Shown piece after piece: positions 1,716 through 64,000 of a stretch of DNA of 64,000 nt. Source of the DNA: Gautieria morchelliformis. Taxonomy: Eukaryota; Basidiomycota; Agaricomycetes; Gomphales; Gomphaceae. Under the pieces are notes generated by a model. The model ran no database searches and had not been told where the DNA came from. It saw only the letters and a program-made list of their open reading frames with translations. Location of the stretch: assembly GCA_015179125.1 (NCBI GenBank), contig WHVA01000058.1, positions 268,521 through 332,520 on the forward strand, in the 5' to 3' direction. The position numbers were made by a program, and so were the translations under genes. Within the stretch, counting starts at the first letter, position 1. Each line of letters begins with the position of its first letter.

Positions 1716-1718
1716 CCG

Positions 1719-2927: not shown

Positions 2928-3255
2928 TAATACATCATGGGGATCATTTTTGTATGCTTGTGACAATGCTCCCCAATGGCAAGTTTTATTTTGTGTAAAA
3001 TTTGATTATTTTATGTTGGTGCAGGCTACTCACTCAAATTGCCAACGTAGCGACTGCCTGTCGCACTGGGAGAATCCCCAGAAGAACCACTGTGGGAAAA
3101 CGTTAGCGATGAGGAGGAAAGGAGCAACTCCCACTGGGCCCGAGGGCGGGGTGGAATGGAGCTAACCCTAACCTGAAAGGTCACAACCGCCCAACATATG
3201 ACATTCAAGCCAACCATGCTGAGAACGTTTTGCGACGAAGGAGACGGGAGTAGAA

Positions 3256-3520
3256 GAATCCTAAAGAGGGGTCAGCGGGTTCAGGGGGAATAGAGGAAGA
3301 GACGGACCGACACAGGGAATGATGAGCCAGATGAGGGCGGCGGAGGCAAGGACCCAGATGTCCCCTGGGGAGTAGATGCACCCCATGGTCGGGTTGTAGA
3401 GGTAACATTGGATGGACTCGGCTGGGGAGCGTGGCTCAGCATGGCACCAGAGCACTCGCGGGGGGGGAGTACTTACAGTTCGCATCATAGGCGATGTTCA
3501 CCATGATGGGCTGGGTGGGG
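3256..3520 (-). pseudogene. possible host membrane-protein fragment
   Basis: On the minus strand a short start (MVNIAYDANC) is followed, after a one-base shift at a run of seven C, by a plausible protein with HAEPRSPAESIQCYLYNP and a hydrophobic segment DIWVLASAALIWLIIP that could be one membrane helix. A GTAAGT lies at the junction, so splicing rather than a frameshift is possible, though no acceptor at a normal distance was found. I do not recognise the family. It may equally be a chance frame. Confidence 0.25.
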
Positions 3521-3539
3521 GACACGAGATTTTAGACGG

Positions 3540-4812: not shown

Positions 4813-5491
4813 TGTCAAGATTGGTTTTTAGGCGTTAATATCGTGTATTAGTGAACACAACGAATGCCCGAATAACTTGTGCGAATAAGTATGCCATTCG
4901 GCGAATAAGTGAACCAATGAATGTTCACGAAACAAAGGGGTTGCCCGAACGGGGCTCGCCCTGTCTACAGTCGTAGCGAAACAGCTCGCAGTACTTGACG
5001 ACGCAACGTGCAAGATATTACGGAAGGGCTGTCTAAGTTTCGACGGTCCCTTCGCTGGCGAAGGTGCTCCTTAGGAGCCCTTTGCCAACAGCACAGAAAG
5101 TAGTTCGAAGGCTAAGGTAACGAAGATGAAGTATGAGAACTCACCAGTGATGCCTAAGTCCTCTTCTGGTTGAAGATAGAAATCTCCAGGAGAAGGCTCA
5201 AGACGATGATCACAGCGAGGTCGAGTTTGCACAAGATGAACGACGTATGATAATTGAACTGGGGAATATACATGCGAATGTAAACTACTTATATCGAATG
5301 CTCGCAAGGTATTAGCGAATAGGAAAGAGGCCGTCGTGAGTTAGGACCGGATCGGGGTGTGCAGTCATGATACTAAGTAGATGGAATAAACATACAATAG
5401 AGTGAGGGAAGAATGCGAACATGAAACAACGGAGAGTAAAGGGGGCGAAAGCACTTATGGACAAAACCATGTCTTGGGACCCGCATACATG
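4813..5491 (+). repeat. LTR-like repeat, copy 2 (about 679 bp)
   Basis: Second full-length copy of the repeat at 464-1140, again starting TGTCAAGATTGG and keeping the internal CGAAGGTGCTCC / GGAGCCCTTTGCC inverted repeat. It has no partner in direct orientation within reach, which fits a solo LTR. It lies directly upstream of the zinc-finger gene relic at 5.55 kb. Confidence 0.5.
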
Positions 5492-5651
5492 CTAGCAGCA
5501 CCAGCCGCCCACACTCACGGGGAAATCCCGCAGTAAGCCGTCGCGTCGGCACCCACCAATGGTCTGCGCCAACGCGCGTTCGCGTGGAGGAGCTCTGACG
5601 GGTGGCTGTGCGGCTGCGACCTATGAGAGCTGGTATGGTGTTCCCTGGCTA

Positions 5652-5687
5652 GTGGAAACGACGGTGATGGACCACCGTCGTTTCCAC
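5652..5687. repeat. fold-back palindrome, 15-bp arms
   Basis: GTGGAAACGACGGTG at 5652-5666 is matched by its exact reverse complement at 5673-5687, with 6 bases between. The zinc-finger gene relic changes orientation here. Confidence 0.8.
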
Positions 5688-5759
5688 CACCCGGGCGCGT
5701 GGCTACCCGTTGGACCCCGGCTCTGACCCGCCACGACCGCTGTACAAGCCGAAAGGCCC

Positions 5760-5788
5760 GAGCACCGCCTAAGCCTTAGGCCGTGCTC
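5760..5788. repeat. fold-back palindrome, 14-bp arms
   Basis: GAGCACCGCCTAAG is followed almost at once by its reverse complement, with one mismatch. It lies where intact family members go straight from the KPKG segment into the VIILSTDE segment. Confidence 0.7.
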
Positions 5789-5978
5789 ATGCCTCGTGGA
5801 CAAGATGCTCAGTAGTCATCTGGTCCACGGACGACCCGAAGAAAATCCACGAGAAACTTGAAGGGTCCTTGGAGCTATTTGAGGTCAAGGGTCCCGTCAA
5901 AGTCGCAGAGAAATCATGCCTGTGTAGTAAATGTGGCCATGGATCCTCCCGTGAAGAGGAGGTGAAGCGCCACATACT

Positions 5979-6032
5979 GCGGAGGATAGGGTAATGCGTC
6001 TCTATATAGAGACGCACTACCCCACCCTCCGC
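5979..6032. repeat. fold-back palindrome, ~27-bp arms, no spacer
   Basis: The sequence up to the central TCTATATAGA is an imperfect reverse complement of the finger-encoding sequence that follows (GAGACGCACTACC, CACCCTCCGC). Intact copies have only the right-hand half, so the left half is an inverted duplication. Confidence 0.75.
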
Positions 6033-6165
6033 CGGCTGTGCTGGAATCCAACGTGCACGAAGCTTTTTGCGGGGACAGATTCTGCCTTGAAGACACTCGA
6101 AGTACAGGGCTAAAAGTGTAAGGGGGAGGACGGTATGCGGCGAGACTCCGAGGGTGCTGAAGAAG

Positions 6166-6654
6166 GGGAACGAATATATGATTCAAATGAGTGAGGAGAA
6201 TCGGAAGGACTCGAACGTGGGTACCCGTCTTGTTTATTAATATGTATTCCTTCTGTCGACATGTAGCCAATATCGTCCTGCTGTTCACTTACGCCTCCAT
6301 TTCTCTGCGTGTGTGGCCATCAGCAGCCCAGGGACGCATAACGTAGAAGCACTTAAAAGCCATTCTCTCATAGCTGCGCATGTCAGTACCATACGCAACC
6401 ACGGCTTAGATTGGATTGCGGATTCAAGGGAAGAGTCGAAACCTGACAATCTAGAGGGACCGAAGGCAACGTATATAGTAGCAACGGCAGTAATCTCTCC
6501 ATGCGCGGCACGCGGGCCAGGGCCTGTGTGTACGAGAAGTACCAGAAGGGCAACATGACCAGGAAATGAGAGCATATATATAAGAGTGATCCCAACACAC
6601 AATATAATAAAAAATAAAAAATAAAACACAAAACGCGAGGAAACCCAGCGATCC
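6166..6654 (+). repeat. block V (3' flank of the ~5 kb unit), copy
   Basis: Downstream flank of the zinc-finger gene, also found at 38312-38920 and 43354-43930 (+) and at 11000-11590 and 20400-20990 (-). Marker sequences are TCGACATGTAGCCAATAT, GTTCACTT.CGCCTCCAT, AAAAGCCATTCTCTCA and TTGCGGATTCAAGGGAAGAG. It probably includes the gene's 3' untranslated region (AATAAA-like strings, ATTAATA). Here it is followed by repeat S instead of block U. Confidence 0.6.
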
Positions 6655-7185
6655 CCCACGTATATACACCACCGTCTCTGCATGACGACGGTTTCTCCCA
6701 CGACCCACGTGACCCGCACCAGGCGTCCTAATTCCGCCCTGCGCATGGCGGCCACGTGTCTCGAGCTCTGTTCGTTCGGCTTCGGGTTCCTGGCTACATC
6801 TTATGTCATCCTGGCTTCTTCCGGTCTCTTGCTTGCCGCGACGGCGCTTCTGTCCCTGTCGTGCTTCCGCAGCTGTCAATTGGAATTTGGCGCTGGGGGC
6901 TTCTTGCTTCTGCTGCTTCTGTCGTTTCTATGCCCCGGTGTACATAGCTCCCGTTGTGACTTCCTAGTTTACGGCGCAACATTTTCGTGTGCGCACTCTG
7001 GGGACTGTGGAGACGTTTCTGTTCGAGATTGTTCTTGCCCGCCATCCTTTTTTATTTTCAGTTTTAATTCTTGTTCCTCTCCACACACAAGGTGATCCTT
7101 CTACGCCAGGTACCGCTCGTTTGTTCCTTCCTAAAAATGTTTTTACTTTGTATACTGCTCCCGCCAATCACAGGTAGAATATAAT
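6655..7185 (+). repeat. dispersed repeat S, copy 2
   Basis: Second copy of the repeat at 2437-2927, with the same TATATACACCACC start and CCAATCACAGGTAGAATATAATA end. It is about 40 bp longer because of an insertion (around 7080-7135) before the final CCAATCACAGG. It directly precedes the Ty3/gypsy element and could contain sequence captured with it. Confidence 0.5.
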
Positions 7186-7426
7186 ACCTTCCGTCCAGCA
7201 AATGACAATATTACTTATGAGGCGTATATGTTACAGTCCTTCTGATCGACAGCTCTCTTGTCGCTCGGGTGCACTCAACTCGGGCGGCGGAGAAAATGGC
7301 TGCCAATTGTGCCCCACCAGGGGACTATTTCAGATGTCCCACCACGTTTGCACCAACGCAGCTGCCATTGGGCTCTCCTGAATTTATGAGAAATGGAGGG
7401 CGCGTGAGTCGAGCTCGAGGGATACA

Positions 7427-8869
7427 ATGTTAACAGTAGACGTACAGACTGTCACCTCCCAAACTGACGAGCTGCTTGCCCAACAACCCCATGTAGAGCT
7501 CAACGGTGCTGACCCAGATGATGCCAATAAAAGAAAATTGTCAAGTGTCCTCCCGGGGGTTTATCAGCTCAGACAATTGAAGCCCGGGGATAGGGAAACA
7601 GCAATGACTACTTACCCATTCCTGACTCACACTATGGACCAGATCCCGGTCCAAAGCTACTTGGCAAATATCTTCAAGGGAAGAACAACAAAGCACCCCA
7701 CAAACCAGCAATACGACTCGGATGTGTCCTCGGCTAAATCAAGTGACCCACCTAGCATGTACAAAGCCAAAATACTTCGAAAGAAAGCTTACCGTAAGAA
7801 ACTGAAAGAAAGACTTGCAGACACGTCCCATGTCAAAATCTCGGAGCCAGACCCATACAACGGCTCCGCAGACTTCGACGCGTTTGAGCAGTGGACATTT
7901 GAAGTAAATAATTGGTTCAAAATGACAAAATTTCCATCACATTTTCATGTAAGACACATGAAGAAATTTATGAAAGGAAAAGCAACGAAATACTACATGA
8001 CATTCGTGGCCCCTCAACCTGACAACTACACGGTAGAATCCCTGGGAAAGGAGCTATTGGACTTCTGTTTCCCAGGACACATTAGACAACAAATACGTCA
8101 AAAATTCTATGAAGCTCACCAAGGCAAGAAAACGATACGAGAATACATCAGACACCTGCGATCTCTGGCAACGCGCCTGCCGGATATTACGGAGTTCCAC
8201 ATTGTTCAACAGCTATGGAATGGAGCCAACAGCTACCTTCACCTAGAATGGACTAAGGCGGGTTTGTCTGATGAATACACAGATCTCTTGACATTAGAAG
8301 AGACCGCTGAACGATTCGAACAGGCTGAACATTTACGACAATACGAAGAAAGGTGGAACGCCTCCCTTCCAAAAACAGAACCCAAACGACCTTTGAGGAA
8401 TAGAGATGTATATCCACGCCCGGCGTCCCCAACAGAGGCACTCAGGTCACGAACCTCTCCATCTAAATGCCACAACTTCCACAATTTCAAGCCTAGAGAT
8501 AGAACGACAAATGATAGCAGATATAACTCCAGCGTGAAAAGAAGATCCCGCTCACCGTCCCTAGCCAATAGGCCCAAACTCTCTGATGCGCAAAAAGATG
8601 ACTTACGTGCCAAAGGACTCTGCTTCCTATGCAAGGAATCGGGCCACCTCTCACGCAACTGTCCTACACGCACAACGGTCCCGACTAATCGCCACCTGAA
8701 GCCCCCCGGCGTACACGCAGCAACCGTTGAGATACCCGACCCTGTCGCTGCTCTAGACCGCTTAGCCGCTGAAAACATCATGTTGGAACTCAACATGATA
8801 GAGCAATGGGAAGATCTAAATGACACACCAAACGCCTTGGATATCCCACAAGTTTCTGGGATGCAATAA
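7427..8869 (+). CDS. gag: Ty3/gypsy Gag, CCHC nucleocapsid
   Basis: A 480-residue open frame encoding the structural protein of the element. Residues ~140-300 form a retrotransposon gag domain (DFDAFEQWTFEVNNWFK, then RKFYEAHQGKKTIREYIRHL), which packs the RNA into particles. A basic Arg/Ser-rich segment follows. One zinc knuckle CFLCKESGHLSRNC (CX2CX4HX4C) sits near residue 410 and binds RNA. It ends in TAA at 8867-8869. The pol frame is already open before that stop in the -1 phase, which may reflect programmed frameshifting. Gag looks intact although the rest of the element is decayed. The start at 7427 is simply the first Met of the frame; the upstream frame at 7294 could extend it. Confidence 0.8.
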   Translation: MLTVDVQTVTSQTDELLAQQPHVELNGADPDDANKRKLSSVLPGVYQLRQLKPGDRETAMTTYPFLTHTMDQIPVQSYLANIFKGRTTKHPTNQQYDSDVSSAKSSDPPSMYKAKILRKKAYRKKLKERLADTSHVKISEPDPYNGSADFDAFEQWTFEVNNWFKMTKFPSHFHVRHMKKFMKGKATKYYMTFVAPQPDNYTVESLGKELLDFCFPGHIRQQIRQKFYEAHQGKKTIREYIRHLRSLATRLPDITEFHIVQQLWNGANSYLHLEWTKAGLSDEYTDLLTLEETAERFEQAEHLRQYEERWNASLPKTEPKRPLRNRDVYPRPASPTEALRSRTSPSKCHNFHNFKPRDRTTNDSRYNSSVKRRSRSPSLANRPKLSDAQKDDLRAKGLCFLCKESGHLSRNCPTRTTVPTNRHLKPPGVHAATVEIPDPVAALDRLAAENIMLELNMIEQWEDLNDTPNALDIPQVSGMQ

Positions 8870-10222
8870 GTCAAAGCCTATCCGATGGTGTCAGTACCGC
8901 CCACTGCCTCGTGCCCCCAGATTGTCCCAGATCAAAAAGATTTACAACGATCCCAGTATCTATAGACACTGTACTGATCAATGACCGTTTATTCAACATG
9001 CATTACTCACTGACCGTGGAGACAATCCTGGACAATGACTTTGACTGTGTTGCCTGGATAGAATTCGAAAACATCCAAAGACAAGCCAAAATAACCCCCG
9101 CAATTGAACCTTTCTCAGAAGATATGTGGGTGGATACCAGATGAGTGCTGCGAGCCTTCTCAAGGTTAGGTACTAGATGGAACAGAGAAACCTGGATCAA
9201 CTCACAGGATAACCCACAGCACCTAAACCGTCAACAGCTCACCACACAGAACACTGAGCGTATAGCAAATAACCGCCGACTGGGGGAACTAGAGGATGCT
9301 CAGGATCCTACAAACAGTGAGGATGAGTACTCATTCACTTCAGAAGAAATGGACGGCCCTGAGAACGAAACCAAACACTTGGATGATATCCTGCGGACGA
9401 TCGTCCCCCAGGAAGAAGAGGACATATATGCTTCTATGCCTGGGCTAGTACCCATAGAGGACGAAAGTGATGATAAGGAGTCCCCATCGAATGAGAATGA
9501 GGAGGTTCAAATACGCATGGCAGCGGCGTCTCCGGTGTCTAACACTATAGCTGCCAAATCTCAAGGAAAAGTTACAAGGAATCCTCAGAAGACACAGGAG
9601 ATGGAGCGCAATGCCGGTAAACCTAAGGACTTCAAATGACTAATACCTAAAGCCATCGTCATCACAGTACAAGTCAATGGAAAAGACATACGGGCTTTGT
9701 TAGATTCCGGGTTTCTAGCCAACTTCATCTCTTCCCTGTCAGCTTGCAGCCATGGGCTCCCGCACGATGATCAATTGCTCCACAACGGTGGAATTCACAT
9801 ACCAGGAAATACTCGAAAGGAGACCATTCGACGTTATTAACTTGGAAAATTATGATATGATATTGGGTACTCCCTTCTTGTTCCAACACAGGGTTATGTT
9901 GGGATTCAACCCCTCTAGAGTCTCTATAGTGTCGAATATGGCAGAAAAGATTGGTAGACCTGACGTAGCCACCGTAACATCAATGGCAGCGGACCTGGTA
10001 GAAGATGGACTACAACAGATATGTACACAACTTCGTGAATACGCGACGGATATCTGTCATTCCGCGGATGAAATACCACTGCCACCTCTGAGGTCCATTA
10101 ACCATTCCATACCGATAATATATGAATCAAAAACTTACAATTGGAGACCATCGCGATGTCCTGAAGCGGTAAAAATCCTATGTCGAGCAAAACATGACAA
10201 CTATCTGAAAACACGTTGGTGA
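8843..10222 (+). pseudogene. pol: Ty3/gypsy Pol remnant: protease, start of RT
   Basis: The frame opens in -1 phase relative to gag and runs through an acidic linker to a retropepsin with VNGKDIRALLDSGFLANFIS (9660-9730; LLDSG is the catalytic motif) and ILGTPFLF (from about 9866; second conserved motif). An RT N-terminus follows (LPPLRSINHSIPI, WRPSRCPEA). Damage: in-frame TGA at 9142-9144 and 9637-9639, a one-base shift at about 9733 that splits the protease, and truncation after 10222. It cannot make an active polyprotein. Confidence 0.75.
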
Positions 10223-15913: not shown

Positions 15914-18900
15914 TCAGAAGAGTCCCATGGCTCGTCTATGCCGTTCCACTGACTCGCGAGGCAGCGCTTTGGTCAGCAGATCCGCTGGCATATTATTCGT
16001 GGGTACGTAGCCGATCTGAATGACTTTATGAGCGACTTTCTCTCGCAGCCAGAAGTACCGGATATCCAGGTGTTTCATGCGTCCATGATGTTCGGGATTT
16101 TTGGCAACAGAGAGAGCAGACTGGTTGTCAATGAATAGGTGAGACGGTCCTTCGACTTTTGCGTTAAGCTCATCTAATAGGTTCCGTAACCAGACGATCT
16201 CGGTTCCTGCCAGGACCGATGCAACGAATTCAGCCTCGGTTGTGGACAAGGTAACGATATTCTGCAATTTGCTGGCCCAGCTAGCGGCTCCGGTTCCGAT
16301 CTTTGTGAGGAATCCGGAGGTCGACCGACCGTTGTCCGGGTTTCCTCCGTGGTCAGCGTCAGTCCATGTTTGGAATGACCTGGCTGATAGATCGGGCGCG
16401 TATGTGAGTGCTAGGTCGATTGTCCCTTGTAGGTAGCGCAAGAGATGTTTTACTGCCGTCCAGTGTGTCGGGCCTGGGTTTGAGTTAAATCGTGCGAGGC
16501 GTCCAACAGCGTAAGCGATATCCGGGCGAGTTGCGATAGCTAAGTAATTCAGCACTCCAACCCCATTTAGGTAGGGCACATGCTTCATTTCCTCCATCTC
16601 TTCCGGTGTTGATGGTCCCATGGCAGAGCTCAAATTCGGACCTGGGGCCATAGGTGTGAATACAGGTCGGCAATCCGACATCTGGAACCGATCAAGGAGT
16701 TCTTGAATATACTGCTTTTGTGAGAGCCTTAGTGTTTTCTGTGTGCGATCATACTCCACTTCTACGCCTAGCAGTGATGTTGTCAGGCCCAGATCCTTCA
16801 ATTTGAAGATTTCGCTTAGTTTGCTTTTGACCTGGTCCAGTTCCGGCTTCAAGTCTGATACTAGGGTTAAATCATCGACGAAAACGGGTATGATGACCTT
16901 GGTGGTATCGCTCATCCAGATATAGACGCTTGGCGCAGATTGAAGCCGCTTGAATCCCATGCTCTCCAACACAGTCCCAAGTCGTTCGTACCACAATCTT
17001 CCACTCTGCTTCAGTCCGTACAGTCCTCTCTTCAGTCTACATACCCAGTTCTGATCCCCCTTGATGATAGCCCTCCGGTTGCTGCATATATATTTTTGCG
17101 TCATCGTCAAGTACTCCATTCAGGTAAGCGTTCGATATGTCTACAGATTCGATGTGTGCTCCCTGAAGCGCTCCCTGAGCTAATATTGTGCGCAGGGCTG
17201 CCCATTGTGGGTAGGAGCAAAGACTTCGTCGTAGTCAATCCCTGGTCGTTGAGTATATCCCTTTGCTACCAGACGGCTCTTGTATTTATCTAGAGAGCCA
17301 TCTGAATGGAGCTTGATTCGGAAGACCCACCGAGAGCCAATGGCTTTCTCTCCAGGCAGTAGTTTTACCAGTTCCCACATCCCATTGTCCAGGAGGGCTT
17401 GGATTTCTGCATCTGTTGAGTTCTTCCACATTGGTGCATCGGAGCGTCGCATTGCTTCGGCGAATGTTTTAGGTACGCGATCATTTTTTATTGTCACATT
17501 CAGTGCCGCTCTGATAACGCACGGTGAAATCATGTTTGTATCAGTGGTGTCTGATCCATCATAGATGAATTCTAGGGCCTGAATGACTGAAGCGTTGGCT
17601 GCTGCACCCCCCTCAGGGCCTGGCTCGTCATGATCAGGAGGGGGTCGAGGTCGGAGGAAGGGGTCGTGGAGGTGACGGTAATCGATGCGGGCGGTTGTCC
17701 TACTGGAGCGGTGGGGTGGTGGGTCAGGGTCGGCTGGTGGGTCAGGGTCAGCTGGTGGGTCAGGGTCAGCTGGAGGGTCAGGGTCAGCTGGTGGGTCAGG
17801 GATGGCTGGAGGAGGATTTGGAGCGGCTGGCGGGTCAGGTACAGCCTGTGGGCCGGGATTCACAGGGAGTTCAGCATCTTGGTCTGGCTGTCTTTCTGGT
17901 GGAGCTGCAATCTGGTCAGGAAGTAAAGTGGGTGGTAGAGATGATTCAATGGCATTTCTAGTCATGGTGAGGCCTGGGAATTCGGATTCATCGAAGATGA
18001 CGTCTCGAGATATGAGGATACGTTTTGTGATAGGGTCCAAGCAGCGCCAACCCTTATAACCGTCCTCAAAACCAAGGTAAATGCATTTGCGAGATCTGGG
18101 TTGCAGTCCTGTTCTCTCATCCTTTTGCACGTGGACATAGGCAGTGCATCCAAAAGTACGTAGCATCCCGAGGTTTGGTTTGTAGCCAAACCAGGCCTCA
18201 TATGGGGTTTTGTCTACAAGTGCGGAGGTTGGAGTGGCGTTGATGATCCGAACCAATATTTTCAGGGCTTCTCCCCACATCGACGCTGGTAGATGGGCTT
18301 GCTGTAGTAGTGCGACCGTTCCTTCAATGAGGGTTCGATTCGTCCGTTCTGAGATCCCGTTCTGCTGTGGTGTGCCCTTCGTAGTACGTTCGTGAAGTAT
18401 ACCTCGGTGCTGGAAATGCTGGTCCCACTTATGACCTATATATTCCCCGCCTTTGTCATCTCTGAAACGCTTCACTCTCAAGTTTAACTGGTTTTCCGCT
18501 AGTGCTTCGAAGGCTCGGTAGGCATCGAATGCCTCATCCTTTGTCTTCAGGAGATAAACAGTCCTGTACCTCGTGCAATCGTCCGTGAAAGTGATCCAGT
18601 ATCGGTATCCTGATGGTGTGCGGACTGGGAGAGGCCCGTGTACGTCTGAGACAACGAGATTGAGTGGGTTGGATGCTCGGCTATCACTCCTCTTTGGAAA
18701 TGGGTTGCGGTGTTGCTTCGCAGCAATACACGGTTCACAGATATGGGGAATGGTCGCATCTGAATTTAAATGTATTCCGTCGACCATGCCACTCTCTAAA
18801 AGCTTCTCCAGCCATGCCTGTCCGATGTGTGCTAGTCGTCTGTGCAATAATGGTCGGTCTACAATGGGTGAAGAGGTGGTAAGAGCCAGTTCTTGATTTG

Positions 18901-19300
18901 GGATTGTGTTCCCAGTTAAGAATCCCGTCCTGTTCCGTACTGTGGCACAGAAGCGCAGTTTGTTATCCTGGATGAATGATATGCGGCTGTTCACAATGCA
19001 GACTGTGAAGTTATGGTGTGTGGTAAGGTGGAGGGCCGCGAGTAGGTTGTTCTGTAGTGCAGGTACATGTAGAACTTGCGAGAACAAGATACTTTGCGCC
19101 GCTTTCCCATCAATGATGGGAGAAAATAGTACCTGCCCTCGCCCGGCTGAGTACACTATTTCATTCGTTGCCAGCCGGATGGGTACTCTGTAGTGCTCAT
19201 AATTCCGTAGCCAATGACGGTGAGGGGTCATGTGGCTAGTGGCCCCTGTGTCCGTGTTCCAACACAGGTCGGCGTCTCCGCTGGTTGGTGATGAGCGCAA
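15914..19300 (-). pseudogene. pol: copia 1 Pol: protease, integrase, RT, RNase H
   Basis: Read from 19300 downward. Protease has WNTDTGATSHM. Integrase has the HHCC zinc domain (HRRLAHIG...CEPCIAAK) and the D-D-E core (VVSDVHGP, FRDDKGGEY, GTPQQNGISERTNRT). A spacer follows with six 18-bp repeats (17700-17815) encoding DPPADP. RT has KYKSRLVAKGYTQ, YGLKQSGRLWYE and VFVDD; RNase H has TDADHGG, LSTTEAEFVA and FIDNQSA. Between about 17215 and 17060 two opposite indels put ~50 codons out of frame and create stops; the frames before and after are the same. With the TGA in front of pol this copy is inactive, though the domains are otherwise well preserved. Confidence 0.85.
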
Positions 19301-19303
19301 GGG

Positions 19304-19888
19304 TCATAGATTCGCATTTCTGGCGAGCTCCTCTGTGGTACCACTTGACATGCTCTCTTTCACTCGCTTCGCATTCTGCCTCCTCGGCAATCGTGCTTCC
19401 TCATTTCTTCGTGTTGGTTTGAGGCACGGGTGAGCGAGCCGGCATTTTTCCGCTGAGTGGCCTTGTCTTCTGCATACTGTGCATGCTGTAGTATTCCATT
19501 TTTCTATGGACGTGGGTGAGGACGCTTGTCGCTTCAGGTTTTCGTTTCCTGTGGCGACAGTGTTTCGATTGAGGTTGCTACTCTTTAGCTTTTTCCACAT
19601 TTCAAAGGGATTTTCCATGATGTTCTCGACGTGGGCGTATTGTGTCGGAGCGAGGGATTCGAGTATGATGCCAGCGGCCTCCTCCCTCTTCAGGAGCCAT
19701 TTCTCAGCTTCTCTTGCGTCCATCGGCCTTTCGAGGTCTTCGGTGACTATTTGCCATGCGTCTACTGTTACGAGTTTCTCCTGCATTTCAGTTGCCCAGG
19801 TATCGTAATTCGTGCCCGTAAGTTTGACGCTTTTCGCGCGACCTTCAGTTTCCGATTTGGGCATACTGAGATTTTTTTCTTCGATCAT
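19304..19888 (-). CDS. gag: copia 1 Gag
   Basis: About 195 residues from the ATG at 19888-19886, just downstream of the primer-binding site. KLTGTNYDTWATEMQEKL and LESLAPTQYAHVENI are typical of the copia UBN2/gag domain, and the zinc knuckle CTVCRRQGHSAEKC (CX2CX4HX4C) is intact. It stops at TGA (19306-19304), and pol continues in the same frame after that codon (PLRSSPTSGDADLCWNTDTG). This is either a nonsense mutation in a single gag-pol frame, the usual copia layout, or a readthrough signal; mutation is more likely. Confidence 0.8.
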   Translation of the reverse strand: MIEEKNLSMPKSETEGRAKSVKLTGTNYDTWATEMQEKLVTVDAWQIVTEDLERPMDAREAEKWLLKREEAAGIILESLAPTQYAHVENIMENPFEMWKKLKSSNLNRNTVATGNENLKRQASSPTSIEKWNTTACTVCRRQGHSAEKCRLAHPCLKPTRRNEEARLPRRQNAKRVKESMSSGTTEELARNANL

Positions 19889-19906
19889 AGCGCGGGGCCC
19901 ATAACC

Positions 19907-20073
19907 TGTTGCGCGCAGGACTGAGTTCAAAGGGAAAAGTGATAGGATTACTATCTGCTCAGTGAGTATCTAACAGTACGTACCTGAGTTCGAAGGGAAA
20001 AGTGATAGGGTTTCCCTTCGAACTCAGACTACTATATTGGTCGACTGCGTCACGTGACCTCGCACGAGCAACA
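19907..20073 (-). repeat. copia 1 LTR (5' LTR, minus strand)
   Basis: Second LTR, 167 bp, with the same TGTTG...CAACA ends and the same hairpin. On the minus strand it is followed by GGTTATGGGCCC, which is complementary to the anticodon stem-loop of an initiator methionine tRNA of the GGGCCCAUAACC type, as in Drosophila copia. Confidence 0.9.
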
Positions 20074-45288: not shown

Positions 45289-46363
45289 GTCGCATGGCCA
45301 CCGGCGTTCACCACGCCAAACATCGAGGACGGGTGGCGTCATCACTAACATCCCTGTCAGCACCCGAAAAATATCAGTGGCGTTCGTGCTATGTCTCTGG
45401 CGACTTAGATTCCTCCGAGCCCAGCTTGCGAAGGTGGGACATCAACGTCACACCTTACTTGATTTTGAAGCCCGAACACCCAGCTGACGCAGCAGCTGAC
45501 GCAGCAGCTGACGCAGCAGCTGACGCAGCAGCTGACGCAGCAGCTGACGCAGCAGCTGACGCAGCAGCTGACGCAGCAGCTGACGCAGCAGCTGACGCAG
45601 CAGCTGACGCAGCAGCTGACGCAGCAGCTGACGCAGCAGCTGACGCAGCAGCTGACGCAGCAGCTGACGCAGCAGCTGACGCAGCAGCTGACGCAGCAGC
45701 TGACGCAGCAGCTGACGCAGCAGCTGACGCAGCAGCTGACGCAGCAGCTGACGCAGCAGCTGACGCAGCAGCTGACGCAGCAGCTGACGCAGCAGCTGAC
45801 GCAGCAGCTGACGCAGCAGCTGACGCAGCAGCTGACGCAGCAGCTGACGCAGCAGCTGACGCAGCAGCTGACGCAGCAGCTGACGCAGCAGCTGACGCAG
45901 CAGCTGACGCAGCAGCTGACGCAGCAGCTGACGCAGCAGCTGACGCAGCAGCTGACGCAGCAGCTGACGCAGCAGCTGACGCAGCAGCTGACGCAGCAGC
46001 TGACGCAGCAGCTGACGCAGCAGCTGACGCAGCAGCTGACGCAGCAGCTGACGCAGCAGCTGACGCAGCAGCTGACGCAGCAGCTGACGCAGCAGCTGAC
46101 GCAGCAGCTGACGCAGCAGCTGACGCAGCAGCTGACGCAGCAGCTGACGCAGCAGCTGACGCAGCAGCTGACGCAGCAGCTGACGCAGCAGCTGACGCAG
46201 CAGCTGACGCAGCAGCTGACGCAGCAGCTGACGCAGCAGCTGACGCAGCAGCTGACGCAGCAGCTGACGCAGCAGCTGACGCAGCCAGCAGCTGACGCAG
46301 CAGCTGACCGGGCCAGACCATCGGCTGCCCCAGTAAGACACCATCTCGTCCCACATTGGGACG
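45289..46363 (+). pseudogene. coding frame disrupted by the minisatellite
   Basis: A frame reading MATGVHHAKHRGR, YQWRSCYVSGDLDSSEPSLR and YLILKPEHPAD enters the 12-bp repeat in the ADAA phase. After the repeat, a 4-base insertion shifts it; the alternative phase reads RPSAAPVRHHLVPHWDA. The minus-strand frame at 50500-50820 has KPEHPADSAADQSRPSAAPV with just one repeat unit, which shows the ancestral join. The source protein is unknown, and this copy is disrupted by the expansion and the 4-base shift. Confidence 0.45.
45481..46312. repeat. 12-bp minisatellite, 67 perfect copies
   Basis: CAGCTGACGCAG is repeated without a single change from 45481 to 46284 (804 bp, 67 copies), followed by CCAG and about two more imperfect copies to 46312. 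Each unit contains the palindrome CAGCTG. The perfect uniformity means very recent expansion or strong homogenisation. Because 12 is divisible by three, frames stay open through it on both strands (ADAA, QLTQ, LRQL, ASAA, CVSC); the third plus phase hits TGA in each unit. Confidence 0.97.
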
Positions 46364-46396
46364 CCGCTTGCGTGTCCCCTTTGTGTTAACTATTTA

Positions 46397-51449: not shown

Positions 51450-53990
51450 TCAAACCGTAGTCAGCCCTAGTTCAACCGCGAAGTGCTTTACCTTCGCAGA
51501 AGGCAACCCTTTGGTAAGCGTGTCTGCTACCATGTCATCGGTCGGGCAATAAACTAATCGAATTGCGCCTTTTTCAACGATCCATCGGATAAAATGGTAT
51601 CGCATGTCGATGTGTTTGGTTCTGGCGTGATACTGATGGTCTTTGGCAAGCGCGATGGCGGATTGGTTGTCGGAAAACAGCGTGGTGGGTAACATTTTCT
51701 TGTCAAAAAGTTGCTCGATCAGTGACCGAAGCCACAGGGCTTCTTTCGCGGCGTGTGCAGCAGCTACGTATTCGCTTTCCGTTGTGGAAAGGGATACTAT
51801 TGACTGACACTTTGCGCTCCAGGATACAGCTCCTCCATTGATGATGAACGCGTATCCCGATATTGCGTGCCTATCTTCGGCCATACTGCCATCGGCGTCA
51901 GCGTACCCAATCAACTCATTTTTCGTATGACCGTAAGTCAGCCATAGGTTCATAGAACCTTTCAGGTACTGAAAGATCCGTTTGACTGCACTCCAGTGAC
52001 CGGGGGCGAACTTGGTCGAATACCTGGATACGGCTTGTACGGCGAAGGCGATGTCAGGGCGGGTTCCGAGGGCGGCGTACATGAGTGATCCAACAGCCTC
52101 TCTATAAGGTATGTCTCGCATTTTAGCCCATTCGGCCGTGGTCTTAGGGGTTGGCGACATGGAGAGGAGTCGGCCACGGTCCATCGGCATCGATACAGGT
52201 TTGAGATCTTCGAAATTATACCTTCGTATAATTGACTCTATGTAGGATCGCTGTGAGAGGTGTATGGTTCGTCTTTCTCTGTCCCGTTTTATTTCAATGC
52301 CTAATAGCCAATGCAGCTCGCTGAGGTCAGTGATTTCAACATGCTTCGAGATTCCGACTTTGAATTGCTTTACTGCCATCTCCGACGTTGCAGCAATAGT
52401 GCAATCATCGACGTGTACCAGGACGATTGTGAGTGCATTGTTTGTGCATCGAAAGAAAACGGCCTGATCTACGTCGCAGCGGGAGAACAGTAACTTGGTG
52501 AGCATGATGTCAACAAGTTGTACCAACGGCGGCCGGATTGTTTTAACCCATACAGCGTCTTTTGCAGGAGACATACTTTCCCCGAGGAGCTTGGCGCAGG
52601 ATAGCCTGGTGGTTGAGCCATGTATATTGTTTCTTTTTCAGTGAGTTCACCATTCAGGTATGTGCCCTTAATATCGATCTGATGAAGCTCCATATCGTTC
52701 GCAGCTGCCAAAGCCAGTACGGTCCTAATTGAAGCTAGTTTTGCAACTGGGGCAAAGGTGTCGAAGTAATCGACGCCAGGGACCTGCGAGAAACCTTGTG
52801 CAACAAGCCGTGCTTTGTATCGCACAACGTTCCCAGCAGCATCCTTCTTTGCCCGGAAAACCCACTTTGATCCGACAATGTTTGCGCCGCTAGGGGCCTC
52901 GGTGAGTCTCCAAGTCCCGGCATCACGGAGTACCGCTAACTCTTCATGAATGGCAGTCTCCCATAGGTGCCAGTCAGGGTGTCGTCTTGCCTCAGCCAGG
53001 GCTCGAGGTTCGATTGCTTCGACCTCGCTTGTTTCTGCTACCAGTACGTACCCGTCCACTTCATCAGCGATAAGCATCCACTCAGCGGTTCCTTCCCCTT
53101 CCAGTGTATCTTTCTCTGTGATGGAGGGCATTTGAACTCCTTGTGGTATGGCAGGATCTGACGATCGGTGAGACGACGTTCCGTGCCCTTCGAGGATGTC
53201 TCTAATATGCTGACTGGGCTTTCGCAGACGTTTGGCAGGTGCCTCGGCATCGGAGTCGGACTGGGGTTCGCTGGTGTGGGGCACAGACGGGGCATTGGGT
53301 ATGGGTGCATTGGAGGAGGGGTTTTTGTTTACTGGTGCGTTAGTTTCCGTCTCGATTATTTGCCAGTTCTCCCCCTCGAGGTGAGAAGCTGACGCAGAGC
53401 TGTTGTCGAAGTGGACGTTGCGTTCCACTGTGACAGATTTCTTTTCAGGCCAATAAATTCGGAGACCCTTACTCCTTTCATCAACCCCTATCCAGCGGCC
53501 TTCAGACACTCGACCGCCGAGTTTGTCTCCCCCTTCAGTGCGTATCCCCACTCTTTCCCCCCATTCGCGAATGTGCTTAAGGTTCGGTTTATCTCCGAAA
53601 GCAGCCTCGTGAGGAGTTTTACCATTGACTGCTTTAGTCGTGGTACGGTTCATCAGCCAGACAACATGCCGAGCCGCCTCGCCCCACAGAAACCTTGGAA
53701 GCCCACTTGCATGGAGCAGGGCTTGTACACGTTCAACTATCGTGCGGTTGCGTCGTTCGGCCACGCCGTTTTGCTGGGGTGTGTCATGCACGGTAAGTTT
53801 TTGTGTGGTTCCTTTCGACTTCAAATGAACTGTGAATTCTTTTCCCAGATATTCACCGCCTCTGTCCGAGTGGAGCGTTTTGACACGAGCCTTCAGCTGC
53901 GCGTCACACCATGACTCATACTCCTTGTAGGCACTAAATGCCTCGTCTTTGGACGCAGCAGATAAAGGTGAGTTAAATGCGTCATATCAT
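51450..53990 (-). pseudogene. pol: copia 2 integrase core, RT, RNase H
   Basis: From ~53960 the frame opens with DEAFSAYKEYESW and the integrase residues TLHSDRGGEYLGKEF and DTPQQNGVAERRNRT. RT follows (RYKARLVAQGFSQVPGVDYF, TLYGLKQSGRRWYN), then a frameshift at about 52520, after which CDVDQAVFF, LVHVDD (active site), and RNase H (YADADGSMAEDRHAISGYAF, LSTTESEYVAAAHA, FSDNQSAIALAKDHQ, HTKHIDMRYHF) run to TGA inside the polypurine tract. Apart from the single-base shift the domains are complete and of normal length. Confidence 0.85.
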
Positions 53991-55806
53991 CCGTAAACGT
54001 GATATAGTAACGCTTCCCGGCTTTTGTTGTGACTGGAGCCGGTCCCCATAGATCGCTGTGGACTTCTTGTCCAAACGCCGTGGCTCTCGTGCCATCCCTG
54101 ATCTTTGGGAACGGTTTCCGTGTGGCTTTTGCATATACGCAGGATTCGCAAAAAAAGGGGTCGCCTGGCGGTAAGGTTTCAAGCTTTACTCCAGTTACAA
54201 AGCCCTTTGTAACTAATCTTCTGGCTATTTCAGGAGAAATATGACCCATTCTTCGATGGAATTGGTCCAGGGTAAGCACATCCTCGGCTGAGTTTGCTGT
54301 TTCCTGCTCATGTGATACGCGGTAGAGGCCGTGTCCGGTTTTTAGGACCATGCCAACAAGCTGATCATCTCGATCCCGTATGACACATTTGCCATCTGCA
54401 AATGATACAGCGAAACCAGCATCGTCGAGCCGTCCGATTGACACAAGAGTATACCCGACATCAGGTGAGTACAAAACCTCGGTTATATTAAGCTGGGATG
54501 TCGTAGCTCCATTTGGTACGTCAATCCTCATCTCACCCGTCCCGACTGCGCTGAAATTCTTTCTGTTTGCAGCTCGGAAGGATTTTGGCAGTATGGGGGT
54601 ATAACTTGTTACTGCGTCTCGGTATGGCGTTATGTGTCTTGTGCATCCGGAGTCGTAGACTTCGGTCTGAGGTGAGTTTTCCGCCGTGCTGTTGACCTCT
54701 GCGCATACTGCATGCGCATCCTCCTGATCAACGCTGACAAGTGAACAGGTATCACTTTTGTCGGCTATGGGCAACTCCTCGTTCTTGCGATCAGTTTCTA
54801 GGTCATCACCGACTTCAGAAAACCAGTCGCCTGCACAGTCCTCATCCGAGTCGGACTCGCAGTTCGTTAATAGTTGGGGTAGCTCGTCATCCGAGTTCCA
54901 ATCAGCGAAGAAGGTGGCACCGTCTTCGCCATCTGATTCCACAGCCGCATTAGCAGAGCCGCCACCTCTAGGTGAGTCATGTTTCTTGTCACCAGTGGCT
55001 TTAGCAGGTTTAGGACACTTATTCTTATAGTGTCCCGTGTCGCTGCAGTTCCAGCAAGTACCCTTCGGTTTGCGCTCAAACTTCTTTCCCTTTCCATTCG
55101 CTGATACGAACATCGCTTCATCCTTTTCTTCGCCTTTTCCACTAGTGTGCCCGGGGCGACGAGACTTGTGAGCAGCATGTCTCTCGTACTCTTCAGATAC
55201 TAACGTGATGAGCTCATCAGGGTCTACGGTCTTGGTCGTACTGTAGAGCTTGGCACCTGCTAGTAGGTTCGATGCGAAAGCGGAGAGGTGAGGGGGAAGG
55301 GATTTTATAATGGTTGACCGGTAACCTTTTTCCTCGATGTCCACACCGTACGTTGCTAACTCTTCCTTCTTGACATGTAGGCCATCAAGAAATTCATGCA
55401 CATTTCCTCTGTCGGGACATCTAGACTCCATGAGGTGAGTGCGTAGGTCTGCCTGCGCAAATGCCCCCTTCTATGAGAATTCGGTTACGATGAGTTCCCA
55501 TCGATCCTTCAGAGACGGCTTCCCATGGACGCGAATGAGAGTGGAGTCGGGAATTCGGTGAGTAAGGAGAGCTTTCGCCGTACGTTCATCTTTAACCCAT
55601 TTTGTAAGTGCTTCTTCTTCGTCAGTGGTGGGTGGGGTGCTGACTGATGGCTGAGTCGTAGTGCCGTCGAAGTGCCCCCACAGACCCTTTGCTTTGACAG
55701 CGTCTTGGAAACGCATCGAAAACGCAGTCCAGTTGAGACCGTTGGCCAGGAGTTTCGGGACAGAAGAGGGAAGAAGGTCGGTTGTGGTGAGGGTCGTGGT
55801 GGACAT
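53893..55806 (-). pseudogene. gag: copia 2 Gag, protease, integrase N-terminus
   Basis: Starts MSTTTLTTTDLLPSSVPKLL at 55806. The gag domain (LNWTAFSMRFQDAVKAKGLW) is broken by one TAG at 55473-55471 and resumes in frame (KGAFAQADLRTHLMESRCP). A zinc knuckle CWNCSDTGHYKNKC, a retropepsin motif YDSGCTRHITP, and the integrase HHCC domain (HRRMGHISPEIA...CESCVYAK) follow, with the first integrase Asp in EVHSDLWGP. The frame is lost at about 53960 through one indel. Everything before is well preserved, so inactivation is recent. Confidence 0.85.
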
Positions 55807-58874: not shown

Positions 58875-59123
58875 ACTGACATGTGAAGTGCTATGATGAT
58901 AGTTGAGCATCGGTCCAAACCCTAGTATGTCATTTACAACCTTACTAAACCCTAGTACATCAGTGACTGCCTTGGGAACACTAGTCTATCACTGGTCGGG
59001 AGTCCACACACTGACAGTTTCCCTATAAGGGCATATCAGCATGGTAGCAGGTCTGTATGCAGATGTGCAAGAGTATATAAGTCTGTCACATCACTTGCCA
59101 GAGTATATCAGTCTGTCACTAAC
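58875..59123. other. short repeats before LINE insertion site
   Basis: GAGTATATMAGTCTGTCAC occurs twice (near 59070 and 59100) and CCCTAGTATGTCA / CCCTAGTACATCAG twice near 58920-58955. No gene. The LINE tail begins at about 59124, directly after the second GTCTGTCACTAACC. Confidence 0.5.
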
Positions 59124-59339
59124 CTTTTTTATTTTTATTTTTTTTTATTTATATCCAATTTATCGTCTTTTGGGGCCAAGCCCTATGTAAGACGGATTCT
59201 ACAAGTACCCAGTCGACATGTGATTCCTTTCCCCCCTTTCGTTATCAGTCTCTCCTTGCGCTCAGTGGGCTAGGCCCCGAGCGATTCCGTGCCTGTGTGG
59301 GCGAGGGTTTGTATCTTTGCGCCTTGCGCCTCTGCTGTG

Positions 59340-60353
59340 CCTCCCTGTGTTTCAACCTCTCTCTCCGCCCTGCTCCTGTTGTAGTGTGAGGTCCCCATGC
59401 GTCCTCTCGAACCTGCGCATTTCGCTGATATACTTGAACAGGTGTTTCATCGCTTTGGGTCTTCCCAGGAGCATCCTCGTGGACTTCGCCTCCCTTCGCA
59501 TCTGTCTCTCGAGCTCCTTCCTCGGCGCGTCATAACCTGGGCATCTGAACAAGAAGTGGTAGACGGTTTCTTGGGCTCAGTTGCACGTCGTGCATAACGG
59601 TGAGTTCGCCTTTCCGATCCTATGTAGGTGTTTGTTGAGGCCTATATGTCCTGTCCTGAGCTGCACTAGTAAGCTGGCCTGTTTCTGAGGCAAATCTCTG
59701 CTTAGCTTGCCATACGCATTGGATGGCATGGATGGATTGGTCTTGTGCGCCATCGGAGCTCTAGGTGACTTTGCAAAGGCTGCTCTGGCTGTCCGTTTAG
59801 TGTCCTGGTGATGTCCCTGGAGCTCGGCTGCTTTGCTTCTGGGCAATATTCCTCTGCACTCGATTGGTATCAGCCTCTCTTCACTTGATGACCCCTTTGC
59901 CGCTTTTTTGGCTTCTGCGTCGGCCCTCTCATTCCCAGCGATTCCTGCATGCCCGGGGACCCATCTCATGAGCACGTTGACGCCTGGCTGCAGGCTTACC
60001 ACTCCTTCGATTTGCCTGTGCAAAGCCTCTACCAGGTATTGTCCCGAGATTGCCCTTTCCTTCCTTGTCGTCTGTATCGCCGCTTGACTGTCGGTGACGA
60101 TGACATACTTCTTTCCCCTCTCAGTGTTGAGGAGCTTTGCACCTATCGCCGCGGCTGTCAGCTCAGCTTCGAATACAGTGTGCTCACGCTTGGTGCCCAT
60201 ATACAGCCTAACCACCTTCACTGCCCTATCCCCTCTGTATAACACCGCTGCCGCTCCCACACCTCCTTCCATGCACGAGCCGTCCGTGTGGACCTTGACA
60301 TCCGCTGCCTCTCTGTTATTTTCTTCTGTAGCCTGGTCTTTATCTGGCGGGAC
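59340..60353 (-). pseudogene. LINE RNase H and C-terminal zinc-like segment
   Basis: RNase H acidic residues are all visible: KVHTDGSCMEGG (Asp), VFEAELTAAAIG (Glu), VIVTDSQAAIQ (Asp) and GHAGIAGNERADAEA (Asp). After GHIGLNKHLHRIG comes a Cys/His cluster CTTCN, then TGA (59579-59577), then ETVYHFLFRCPGYDAPR, the usual C-terminal knuckle of these LINEs. RNase H itself is intact and is read in the RT frame after a TGA at 60356-60354. Confidence 0.8.
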
Positions 60354-62034
60354 TCAGGTCTTGAAGGCTGGGGTCCATTTGGGCCCGTAGATTACCGTTC
60401 TGATCTTTTCCATCCTTTCTGGCTGGAGCTCGAACGCGTGCAGGATTTCGTGAATGGGCGCTCTATGTCTCTTTATGTATCGCTTGGCTGCGGTGCATAC
60501 GTCGGAGGCCAGAGGGTGGCTGTCGGGGAGGCAGGTGAGTCTTAGTGCGGCTCTGTGAACTAGCTTGGAGACCAGTAGTGGGAAGGGCAGAAGGTTCGCA
60601 TGTGCGTCTAGTACGTCGTTCGCCGTTGACCTCATGGCTCCCATTATCATGATTGCCACTTGCCGCTGTATTCTAGCCAGCTTGTTTATGTATCCCCTGG
60701 TCCCTTTTGTGTGCTCTGAACCTGGCACGAGGAAAACGTCAGCAGCGTACATCATTTTCGGAATTGTGACTGTTAAGTAGTATCGTCTCATGTACTTAGC
60801 TGAGACTCCTTTCGCTGGCCTCGATAGTCTTCTGTACTGGGCGATGTATTTGTCACCTTTCTTGAGCACATGGTTGACCTGCTCTTTGAAACGTAGTTCC
60901 TGATCCACAATGACTCCCAGGAATTTGTGCGAGCTTGTCGGCTTTATGCAGTGAATCCCAATCGTTATGCTTGGCCTCGCGATCGGTCTGGTTGTCTTGG
61001 CATTGGTGGGGTCCTTTCCTCTGCGCCTAGTCAGGCCCATCAGCCCGAATTTGTCCAGAGCAAAGTCGCATTGGTGCACGCTGGCCCACTCATTGGTGCC
61101 CCTGGGCCTTGTCATGATGTCTGACAGTTTGCCGAAGGCCTCCTTGAGGTCGACGCCTTCTGCCATGATAGTGGTGTCATCTACGAAACCCACGCAACCT
61201 TCGCCCTCGCCGCACCGCACTACTTCGAGCAGGTCAGCATTGTAGAATTGGTAAGCTACTGTGGATACCGGGCATCCTTGGTCCATCCCTCACTCTATCG
61301 GCATAGCCTGTGTGCTATGGTCGTCGAAGCTGATGACTGTGCTCCTTCCCTCCACCCTTCTTTGTATCCACCTAGTGTACTCTTCGGGAACACCCCTCCG
61401 TCTCATGTTGTGCACTAATCGGTTGAGGACAATGCTTGGGAAAGCTCCCTTTATATCCAGGAAAAGCACCCCCAGTACTTTCCCCTTCCTCCATGCGCGC
61501 TTTGCAGCCCCTATGGTGTAGTGCAGGGCATCAGTGGTTGTTCTTCCAGGGCGGCACCCGTAGTGGTTGTCCGGGAGTAACTGGTATCTTTCAGCCATCT
61601 TGACCAGGTCCTCTGCGACGCAAGCCGACAGGACCTTCCCTATTGTGTTGAGGAGCGCTATGGGCCTATATGCCCCGGGACTGTGTAATCGGCCTTCCCC
61701 GGCTTTCTTAGTACTTTGGTGATCGAGTCCCTCCATTCCGACGGGTATGTGTCGAGACTGAAGGTAGCTCTGTACAAAGGGCCTAGAAATGGTAGTAGCA
61801 CGTCAATACACTGCTTAATGATGATATTGGGGATACCATTGGGCCCCGGTGCCTTGAAGGGGTTCAGCCTGTCCACGGCTCGACGTATTTGGTCGTCGGT
61901 AACGGGTTGAAAATCGAATGCGGGGGTGGGGTATTCGAAATCTGCTGGTACTTGTTCCGCCTCTGCTCTGGTTGTTGGAAAGAAAGCAGTGAACAGCATT
62001 TCTGCTTTTTGTTCATTTGTGCTGGCCACCCATT
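60354..62034 (-). pseudogene. LINE reverse transcriptase
   Basis: Begins ASTNEQKAEMLFTAFFPTTR, followed by LNPFKAPGPNGIPNIIIKQC, YRPIALLNTIGKVLSACVAE, LFLDIKGAFPSI (first catalytic Asp), MDQGCPVSTVAYQFYNADLL and the active site GFVDDTTIMAEG. Thumb and linker (KFLGVIVDQELRFKEQVNHV, YLTVTIPKMMYAADVF) lead to RNase H. Lesions: frameshift near 61680 (TVPG to AYRP) and TGA at 61292-61290 between PIE and GMDQG. All core motifs are otherwise present. Confidence 0.85.
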
Positions 62035-62104
62035 TGGTGCCATGCGGGTTTTTAGCGGCAACGCAAATGAACTTGGAGACGCTGGCGGGGGCCCCGGGAA
62101 GAGT

Positions 62105-62423
62105 GATAAACTCGCTGGCCCTGTCAGTGTAGCGTGCGTGCGGCCCAGAACATCTAAGGGCATCACAGACCTGTTATTGCCTCCAACTTCCATCAGCTAA
62201 ACGCTGATAGTCCGTCTAAGAAGCCGGCGACTGGCCAAAGCCGGCCGGGCTATTTAGCATGGGAAGGTCTCGTTCGTTATCGGAATTAACCAGACAAATC
62301 ACTCCACCAACTAAGAACGGCCATGCACCACCACCCATAAAATCAAGAAAGAGCTATCAATCTGTCAATCCTAGTTATGTCTGGACCTGGTGAGTTTCCC
62401 CGTGTTGAGTCAAATTAAGCCGC

Positions 62424-62457
<34 letters not shown>
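62105..62457 (-). rRNA. 18S rRNA fragment (~350 nt) inside LINE ORF2
   Basis: On the minus strand, from 62457, the sequence is the universally conserved 18S stretch AATTGACGGAAGGGCACCAC, then GAGCCTGCGGCTTAATTTGA, ACACGGGGAAACTCACCAGG, GTGGTGCATGGCCGTTCTTA, CGATAACGAACGAGACCTT, GGCAATAACAGGTCTGTGAT and GTTCTGGGCCGCACGC. It ends near CCAGCGAGTTTATCAC. The variable stem CGGCCGGCTTTGGCC...CGCCGGCTTCTTAGA is of basidiomycete type. A few substitutions in invariant positions (AAGTTGGAGGC, GCACGCACGCT) mark it as non-functional. It has the same sense as the LINE and interrupts it between ARVPTL and VASTNEQ. Confidence 0.93.
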
Positions 62458-63611
62458 GTGAGTGTCGGGACCCTCGCCTGCCCGCCGTCAGTCGCGTCTG
62501 CCGACGTGTACCTGTGCGCTGTCCATACGGTTTTTTCGTCTATCTCTTCGAGGAAGGCGTCCCAGTGCAGCTTTTTGTTTCTTTCTATGGCATCGGCATA
62601 CTGGTTCCTGGCAATTTTGTAGTCTTCGTGGGCTTTGTCTGTCGGTTCCCCCTGCCTCGCGTAGGCTTTTCTTCCCAGACTCCTGGAATTGGATCTAAGC
62701 TTACTTAGTTCCCTGGACCACCATCTTTTCATATAAGGGGACGGCTTAGTCTTGGGTGCGAGTTCCTCCGCCGTTTCCAGTATTGCTGTGTTTATCTCCC
62801 TGAGGTGATGTCGGAAAGCCAGTTTGTCTGTGGGTGTCGGCTCGGGGATGCTGTCTTGCAGGCATTCTCCGAGCTTTTCAGTGAAAACCTTCCAGTCTAC
62901 CTCCCTGTAGTTGGGCCTCGGGGTGTAGCTGACTGTTGCGAAGGACATGTCGATTACCGTGTCTATTGGAAGGTGGTCGCTCTTCACTGGCATCTCCTCC
63001 GGCACTGTTTTACAACTGATCAGCCTCTCTAATAGTATAGTGGAAATGAAGACATTATCGGTTCTCGTGTAGTTTCCTGTGGACAGGGCTCGCAATGTGG
63101 GTATGGCCCTGGGTAGCGCCATTTGCAAGTCTTGTTCTGCGATTGCCTCTAGTAGCAGTTGTGCTGCGTCCAGATTGCTTCTGGTAAAGAGGTGTGCGTT
63201 TCGCTCGTCGTCCCACAGCGGGTGGTGGCGGTTGAAGTCGCTGAGCCATATGACTCCTTCGATGTTCTCCTCTTCTGTTTGATTCTGCTCTGCTCAATCT
63301 TGCATGTATCGTCGTATGTCGCGTATGCTGTCTGAGTTAGTGCAATCACAGTATATGTTGAAAATTAGGACTACACCCGTTTCTGTATGCATTTTTATCG
63401 CTGTAATGTCTGACGAGCCTACTTCGATTGCCGTCCATGCGCTTGTTGCGATTTTCTTGTTGACGAGCATGGTAGATCTGGTGCGCTTGCCCTTGTCCTT
63501 GTAATGGGATCCTGGGTAGACGGAGTACCAATGCGGCGATGCTTGAGCGTTCCCTAGGAAGTCCACGTATGGTTCCTGTATGGCTATTATGTCGTACCTG
63601 TCGGGTGGCAT
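62415..63611 (-). pseudogene. LINE AP-type endonuclease and linker
   Basis: From 63611: MPPDRYDIIAIQEPYVDFLG (catalytic Glu), then TGA at 63296-63294, then IEGVIWLSDFNRHHPLWDDE (Asp/Asn of the active site) and MPVKSDHLPIDTVIDM (SDH motif). These are the hallmarks of an apurinic-type endonuclease that nicks the target. The linker follows with YMKRWWSRELSKLRSNSRSL and EKTVWTAHRYTSADATDGGQ. The frame then runs into the 18S insert and ends by chance at 62415. The linker matches the LINE fragment at 1.7-2.25 kb. Confidence 0.8.
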
Positions 63612-64000
63612 TTTGTCAGTAAGTCTGTGACTGCGGTGAGGGATTTATTCATGTTCTGTTGTCTTATCTGCAATGTTTTTTCTCTCTTGTGCCTCGTTAT
63701 TCATCTGTGGCGCAGGCTTTGGTGGTCTTCCTCTCGTTGTTGGTCGTCTATCTGGCTCCCTCCTATTCCGAACTCATCTAGCCTTTGCTGTCTGTCTCCT
63801 TGTCCAGTCCAGCCCTGGTCTCTGTGCCCCCTCGGCGGGTTAGCCCTCTTCCTTCGTTGCAGCTGTGCCTCTCTGTGTTGGTGCTCAGGCCTTGGGTGTT
63901 AACAGGATCTGGCGGCGCATGCCATCCCGGGACGCTGCGCAGGCCTGTCATATTGGTAGGGTCCCCGTTTCTACGCCTGTGTCCGCAGTTCCCTGCTGTT

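Follow-up and report, generated by a model that had tools for sequence, protein, structure and literature searches.

Among the insertions found at breaks in yeast, which show trimming and microhomology, rDNA recurs as a donor; one insertion may hold several donors, and in growing wild-type cells rDNA was the donor in two of eight insertions, according to the available text of a preprint (PMC10802722). Human class 2 templated sequence insertions (TSIPs) are characterised, in the accessible part of their description, by a micro-deletion, microhomology and no target-site duplication (PMC5110952). Foreign RNA sequence joined to a LINE is known from a fungus in the chimeric retrogenes of Magnaporthe, in which the LINE, truncated at its 5' end, forms the 3' part behind a full-length copy of an RNA, with direct repeats around the whole; the same source, as excerpted, mentions mosaic LINEs that result from switches between LINE templates, so that a return to LINE RNA has a precedent (PMC2104539). 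In filamentous ascomycetes, rRNA pseudogenes are described in the available text as divergent paralogs of the rDNA repeat and attributed to RIP (PMC5555474). A literature search in which 18S rDNA insertion, non-LTR retrotransposon and basidiomycete were all combined returned no paper.

The locus described here lies in a 64,000-nt stretch of Gautieria morchelliformis DNA (the window), which forms the end of contig C648 in an assembly of 122 Mb and 1113 contigs. The final 4.9 kb of the window are a minus-strand LINE, with an A-rich tail near 59121 marking its 3' end and with its 5' end beyond the end of the contig. An Exo_endo_phos_2 endonuclease domain at ~62964-63266 and an RNase_H domain at ~59898-60302 were recognised by Pfam. 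The 311-aa piece submitted for the reverse transcriptase (RT) region gave no Pfam match, and the RT assignment was read from the sequence. Also present in the window are two minus-strand elements that look Copia-like by eye (15914-19969 and 51450-55470) and a long tandem array with several frames open on both strands (45455-46393). The features of the LINE and its insert are as follows:

59121..64000, minus strand: LINE copy with endonuclease, RT and RNase H (EN-RT-RNase H), from alignment to the copies in C482, C944 and C670 and from domain matches.
62457..64000, minus strand: 5' part of the LINE (endonuclease and linker), upstream of the insert, from matches in five copies.
62456..62457, no strand assigned: junction between the 5' LINE part and the 18S piece, with 1 nt of microhomology, base 62457 fitting both sides.
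62104..62456, minus strand: 18S rRNA fragment, Rfam positions 1151 to ~1521, in LINE sense, from the Rfam model and a match to contig C337.
62042..62103, minus strand (the strand of the LINE, not necessarily its own): putative second donor, ~62 bp, from genome, peptide and rRNA-family searches.
62041..62042, no strand assigned: junction between the second donor and the 3' LINE part, with 0 nt of microhomology.
59121..62041, minus strand: 3' part of the LINE (RT, RNase H and 3' end), from copy alignment, domains and private mutation load.

The limits of the insert were defined by copies of the same LINE that do not carry it. A genome search with 62000-62550 as query recovered at least six such copies (C482, C944, C215, C153, C670 and C211), with both flanks matching at 93-100%, and the 5' LINE part as a whole is 94.8-96.9% identical to five copies (the C482 match being in two pieces). 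When five of the copies without the insert were aligned base by base, all had 15 nt where the window has 415 bp, while the sixth had 13 nt between its two matches. The insert is therefore bounded at 62042-62456, and the LINE copy in the window has lost 15 nt at the insertion point, recipient sequence being lost there and not duplicated. The initial annotation had placed an embedded 18S piece at 62035..62500; the piece is indeed embedded in the LINE, within the narrower limits given by these copies. It had also read a stretch of shared frame (TLTIDGR) at the left junction as homology between LINE and 18S. Because the intact copies in C482 and C944 read TLTARRDDGTKW at this point of the linker, that frame was created by the insert, and the sequence shared at the junction amounts to 1 nt. 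Among the matches listed, the window itself was the sole locus to match 62000-62550 throughout. These copies also bear on the proposal that the LINE merely flanks part of an rDNA array, or has been rearranged with one, by recombination. LINEs do sit in 18S sequence elsewhere in this assembly (C337, C760, C872 and C999), and here the LINE continues on both sides of only ~353 bp of 18S as one copy; the copies without the insert contradict such a recombination, which we consider very improbable.

SSU_rRNA_eukarya is the sole Rfam feature in the window and lies on the minus strand, like the LINE (E 1.2e-99), in agreement with the original description of about 350 nt of 18S in the orientation of the element. 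The 18S part spans ~353 bp, with Rfam position 1151 at window position 62457 and recognisable sequence as far as ~62104 (GAGUUU, model position ~1521); its 3' limit falls between ~62080 and ~62104, the lower bound being judged by eye. An extension of the Rfam alignment to 61771 traverses LINE sequence and was rejected as spurious. Over 62195-62457, 261 of 263 bases are identical to an 18S piece in contig C337. The piece is cut at both ends, the LINE continues upstream as far as the contig end, and the recognisable parts, LINE and 18S, share one orientation. The native V8 region was not found in the assembly, and a 17-mer spanning the 18S end, GAGTTTATCACTCTTCC, matches the window alone; the exact end is uncertain because of the missing V8 region. 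The 18S part follows what we take to be the fungal pattern up to GAGTTTATCAC.

The ~62 bp between the 18S piece and the 3' LINE part were searched at several levels. Searches with an E limit of 10 gave no other DNA match in the genome, at the sensitivity of the tool used, and no hit in a further rRNA family, and pattern searches of viral contigs with the segment and with its 18S side gave 0 matches for either. The segment is open in the frame of the LINE, and its peptide weakly resembles LINE linkers. A peptide search returned the window and 90 other matches, which rest mainly on flanking LINE residues: 82 of the 90 begin at residue 14 or later, in or shortly before those flanking residues (GTKWVASTNEQ...), and the eight that begin at residue 13 or earlier have 29-47% identity and E values of 0.005-2.2. 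The best match, in C207, covers residues 16-41 at 69% identity (E 2.4e-4), much of it being flanking LINE. In a comparison of linkers at 17 loci (the window, 10 readable loci and six without linker output, C837, C637, C165, C1034, C211 and C820), the residues of the insert were present in none of the 10 readable ones (C207, C482, C1, C599, C375, C224, C892, C629, C219 and C198), C207 sharing VAAK. The segment had been thought to read as LINE over about 62035-62104; for 62042-62103 the DNA searches give no such source and the peptide likeness to linkers is weak, and an origin from a distant LINE source or another LINE subfamily is possible on the strength of that likeness. An origin as a fold-back copy of nearby LINE was also considered, and six tests with 500 single-base shuffles each gave uncorrected P values of 0.50, 0.078, 0.35, 0.012, 0.79 and 0.25, which is not convincing.

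The substitutions carried by the LINE and by the 18S piece allow their ages to be compared. Relative to the other five copies, the LINE in the window has CpG transitions at 26 of 249 CpG positions and other changes at 16 of 2300. The 18S part differs from the C337 piece by two changes in 263 bases, both CpG-to-CpA in the rRNA sense, giving 2/30 at CpG and 0/233 at other positions, rates that do not differ from those of the LINE (P 0.75 and 0.39). The ancestral state at the two differing sites was assigned from the CpG pattern, and the polarity of the changes is presumed from it; CpG-to-CpA changes would be typical of DNA that has shared in the decay of a surrounding repeat. By these counts the 18S part may equal the LINE copy in age or be younger, and they do not place it after the arrival of the LINE. 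The two sides of the insert were also compared with each other. Private CpG transitions were found at 10 of 116 positions on the left and 16 of 135 on the right (P 0.53), and private non-CpG substitutions at 7 of 1130 and 9 of 1196 (P 0.80). Given these equal loads, the LINE halves look like one copy, and the suggestion that two different copies supplied the 5' and 3' parts finds no support.

DNA searches with parts of the 18S gene recovered further pieces in C337, C999, C760 and C872, plus one in C233 at 85% identity, a list that is perhaps incomplete. In both C337 and C999 the 18S starts abruptly inside a repeat that reads, by eye, as an antisense WD40 gene and that continues differently in the eight other copies examined; with one joint in common, the two loci may be copies or alleles of a single event. 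The 18S of C999 also ends abruptly, running into a frame that looks, by eye, like that of a Gypsy integrase. The C233 piece (C233:165083-165302; 584-803 of that locus) is a decayed 220-bp fragment of the V4 region in anonymous sequence. Pieces of rDNA appear to land outside LINEs as well, some with abrupt joints, because 18S fragments adjoin the WD40-like repeat, the Gypsy-like frame and anonymous sequence.

The assembly seems to lack the native rDNA array and contains 18S in pieces only; none of the 39 candidates scored, out of 3550, was a 5.8S gene. One 18S locus runs into a gap of 5000 Ns and another begins beside Ns. Together with the position of the window at a contig end, these gaps and the absent array leave room for an assembly artefact, a false join between a high-copy LINE close to the contig's end and reads of rDNA that had escaped assembly. 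Such a join would have had to replace 15 nt precisely and to supply 62 bp found nowhere else in the genome. A freshly mis-joined rDNA read is further disfavoured because a chimeric join of current rDNA reads would not be expected to differ from the other 18S piece by CpG-type changes, as the insert does, and an artefact is in our judgement quite improbable.

The LINE that interrupts 18S sequence at the other loci is, in C337 (~1467-9591), ~8.1 kb in length and has two long ORFs and both RT and RNase H, and in C337, C760, C872 and C999 it sits in 18S rDNA at one common point, GAAAACGATCAGATACC; ~13-16 bp are duplicated at the insertion in C337 and C999, and in C760 a second copy follows the first head to tail. 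Among 12 copies with 3' flanks (from 40 matches), the flank was 18S in two and another LINE copy in one; among 28 copies with 5' flanks (from 36 matches), it was 18S in three and a LINE tail in one, the 5' flank of C999 being misplaced in this set and proving to be 18S when viewed separately. Most flanks lie elsewhere than in 18S (9/12 on the 3' side, 23/28 on the 5' side), which rules out a strictly 18S-specific LINE; judged by eye, the family prefers GAAAA-type targets, also in another repeat. In C760 (~1-1160 of that locus), unrelated sequence ending in GAATAAAAA precedes the 18S piece directly at CAATTGGAGGGC; it could be the 3' terminus of a further element lodged in 18S.

The insert in the window is probably a patch that was captured by end joining at a double-strand break in a resident LINE. 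In such a course of events, a LINE copy that had settled in the genome earlier would have suffered a double-strand break in ORF2; its broken ends, shortened by 15 nt, would have been joined through two foreign pieces, the 18S piece and the ~62-bp second piece, in an end-joining reaction that used next to no microhomology. The 18S donor would have been an rDNA fragment or a cDNA of rRNA, and the scar would then have decayed along with the repeat. It is the break, its timing after the LINE, the end-joining pathway and the DNA-or-cDNA donor that we infer here. The recipient shows a small deletion (15 nt missing relative to the five aligned copies), the joints are blunt or nearly so (1 nt and 0 nt) with no target-site duplication, and the 18S part matches a distant locus (C337, 261/263); no donor for the 62 bp was found in the genome. 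A patch is favoured over an RT that jumps away and returns because of the micro-deletion, the near-zero microhomology, the two donors and the multicopy nature of the donor. Against a patch, the 18S lies in LINE sense, an orientation that chance gives in half of cases and that RNA template switching favours, and the mutation counts allow the 18S to be of the same age as the LINE copy. An open LINE frame runs through the 62 bp, with a weak linker likeness, and a source in LINE RNA would favour template switching; there are few other 18S fragments, and they could have arisen in other ways.

The initial annotation had the RT jump from LINE RNA to 18S rRNA and back. A chimera does exist, its LINE and 18S parts being of one orientation and compatible age; the microhomology claimed for it does not, the LINE resumes 15 nt on as an apparent single copy, and a second donor follows the 18S. 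With the second donor included, template switching by the LINE RT during target-primed reverse transcription would have passed from the 3' part of the LINE RNA to a further RNA, to 18S rRNA and to LINE RNA again 15 nt upstream of the exit. The shared sense of LINE and 18S, the compatible ages and the readability of the 62 bp in the LINE frame, with their weak likeness to linkers, are all consistent with this course. Fungal LINE chimeras are documented (33 bipartite and one tripartite in the available text), rRNA is among the known chimera partners elsewhere and mosaic LINEs are a recognised product of switching (PMC2104539), and in mammalian L1 chimeras 83% of 28S pieces are sense-oriented, as given in the excerpted report (PMC13174262). 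Three jumps would nevertheless be required, the last of them landing almost on the base of departure and with no microhomology above 1 nt, and 18S fragments elsewhere in the assembly adjoin non-LINE sequence too. Furthermore, in the accessible description the foreign RNA of such chimeras lies at the 5' end and not inside the LINE (PMC2104539), and the pairing of a full-length 5' RNA copy with a 5'-truncated LINE is absent here. Template switching is thus retained as a tentative possibility, and a single four-part retrotransposition that combined the LINE, another RNA (perhaps of a LINE), 18S rRNA and once more the same LINE RNA, less 15 nt, is unlikely. If a return jump were true, it would follow that a LINE RT is able to quit its template and rejoin it nearly in register, which would be informative on how the template is held.

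Compared with the described systems, the window shares with LINE-mediated chimeric retrogenes, the tripartite WEIRD/Mg-SINE/MGL element of Magnaporthe among them, a fungal host and a LINE joined in the same orientation to sequence derived from an RNA gene, as far as their excerpted description goes (PMC2104539); it differs in that both ends of the rRNA piece are truncated and LINE sequence takes up again upstream of it. Mammalian L1-28S chimeras likewise contain, in the available account, an rRNA fragment of a few hundred nucleotides in the sense of the LINE (PMC13174262), whereas the fragment here is 18S and not 28S, and is internal with LINE on both sides. The rRNA pseudogenes of filamentous ascomycetes resemble it in having escaped concerted evolution and in decaying by C-to-T type changes, according to the part of the source available (PMC5555474); they are paralogs of the rDNA repeat, whereas the window holds a short piece in a LINE. 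What the locus offers is a well-delimited rRNA-derived patch whose joint is fixed to the base by insert-free copies in the same genome, and with it a warning that foreign RNA-gene sequence in a LINE copy does not by itself make that copy a template-switch chimera. A short patch of distant origin, a micro-deletion, little microhomology and no target-site duplication are held in common with class 2 TSIPs and break capture, in the accessible parts of both descriptions (PMC5110952, PMC10802722). Unlike those cases, the window presents an old scar in a retrotransposon with a putative second donor, at a presumed break. Ribosomal DNA is a known donor in break capture in yeast, in the preprint text available (PMC10802722), and the locus is most likely a tidy but ordinary genomic scar of this known kind.
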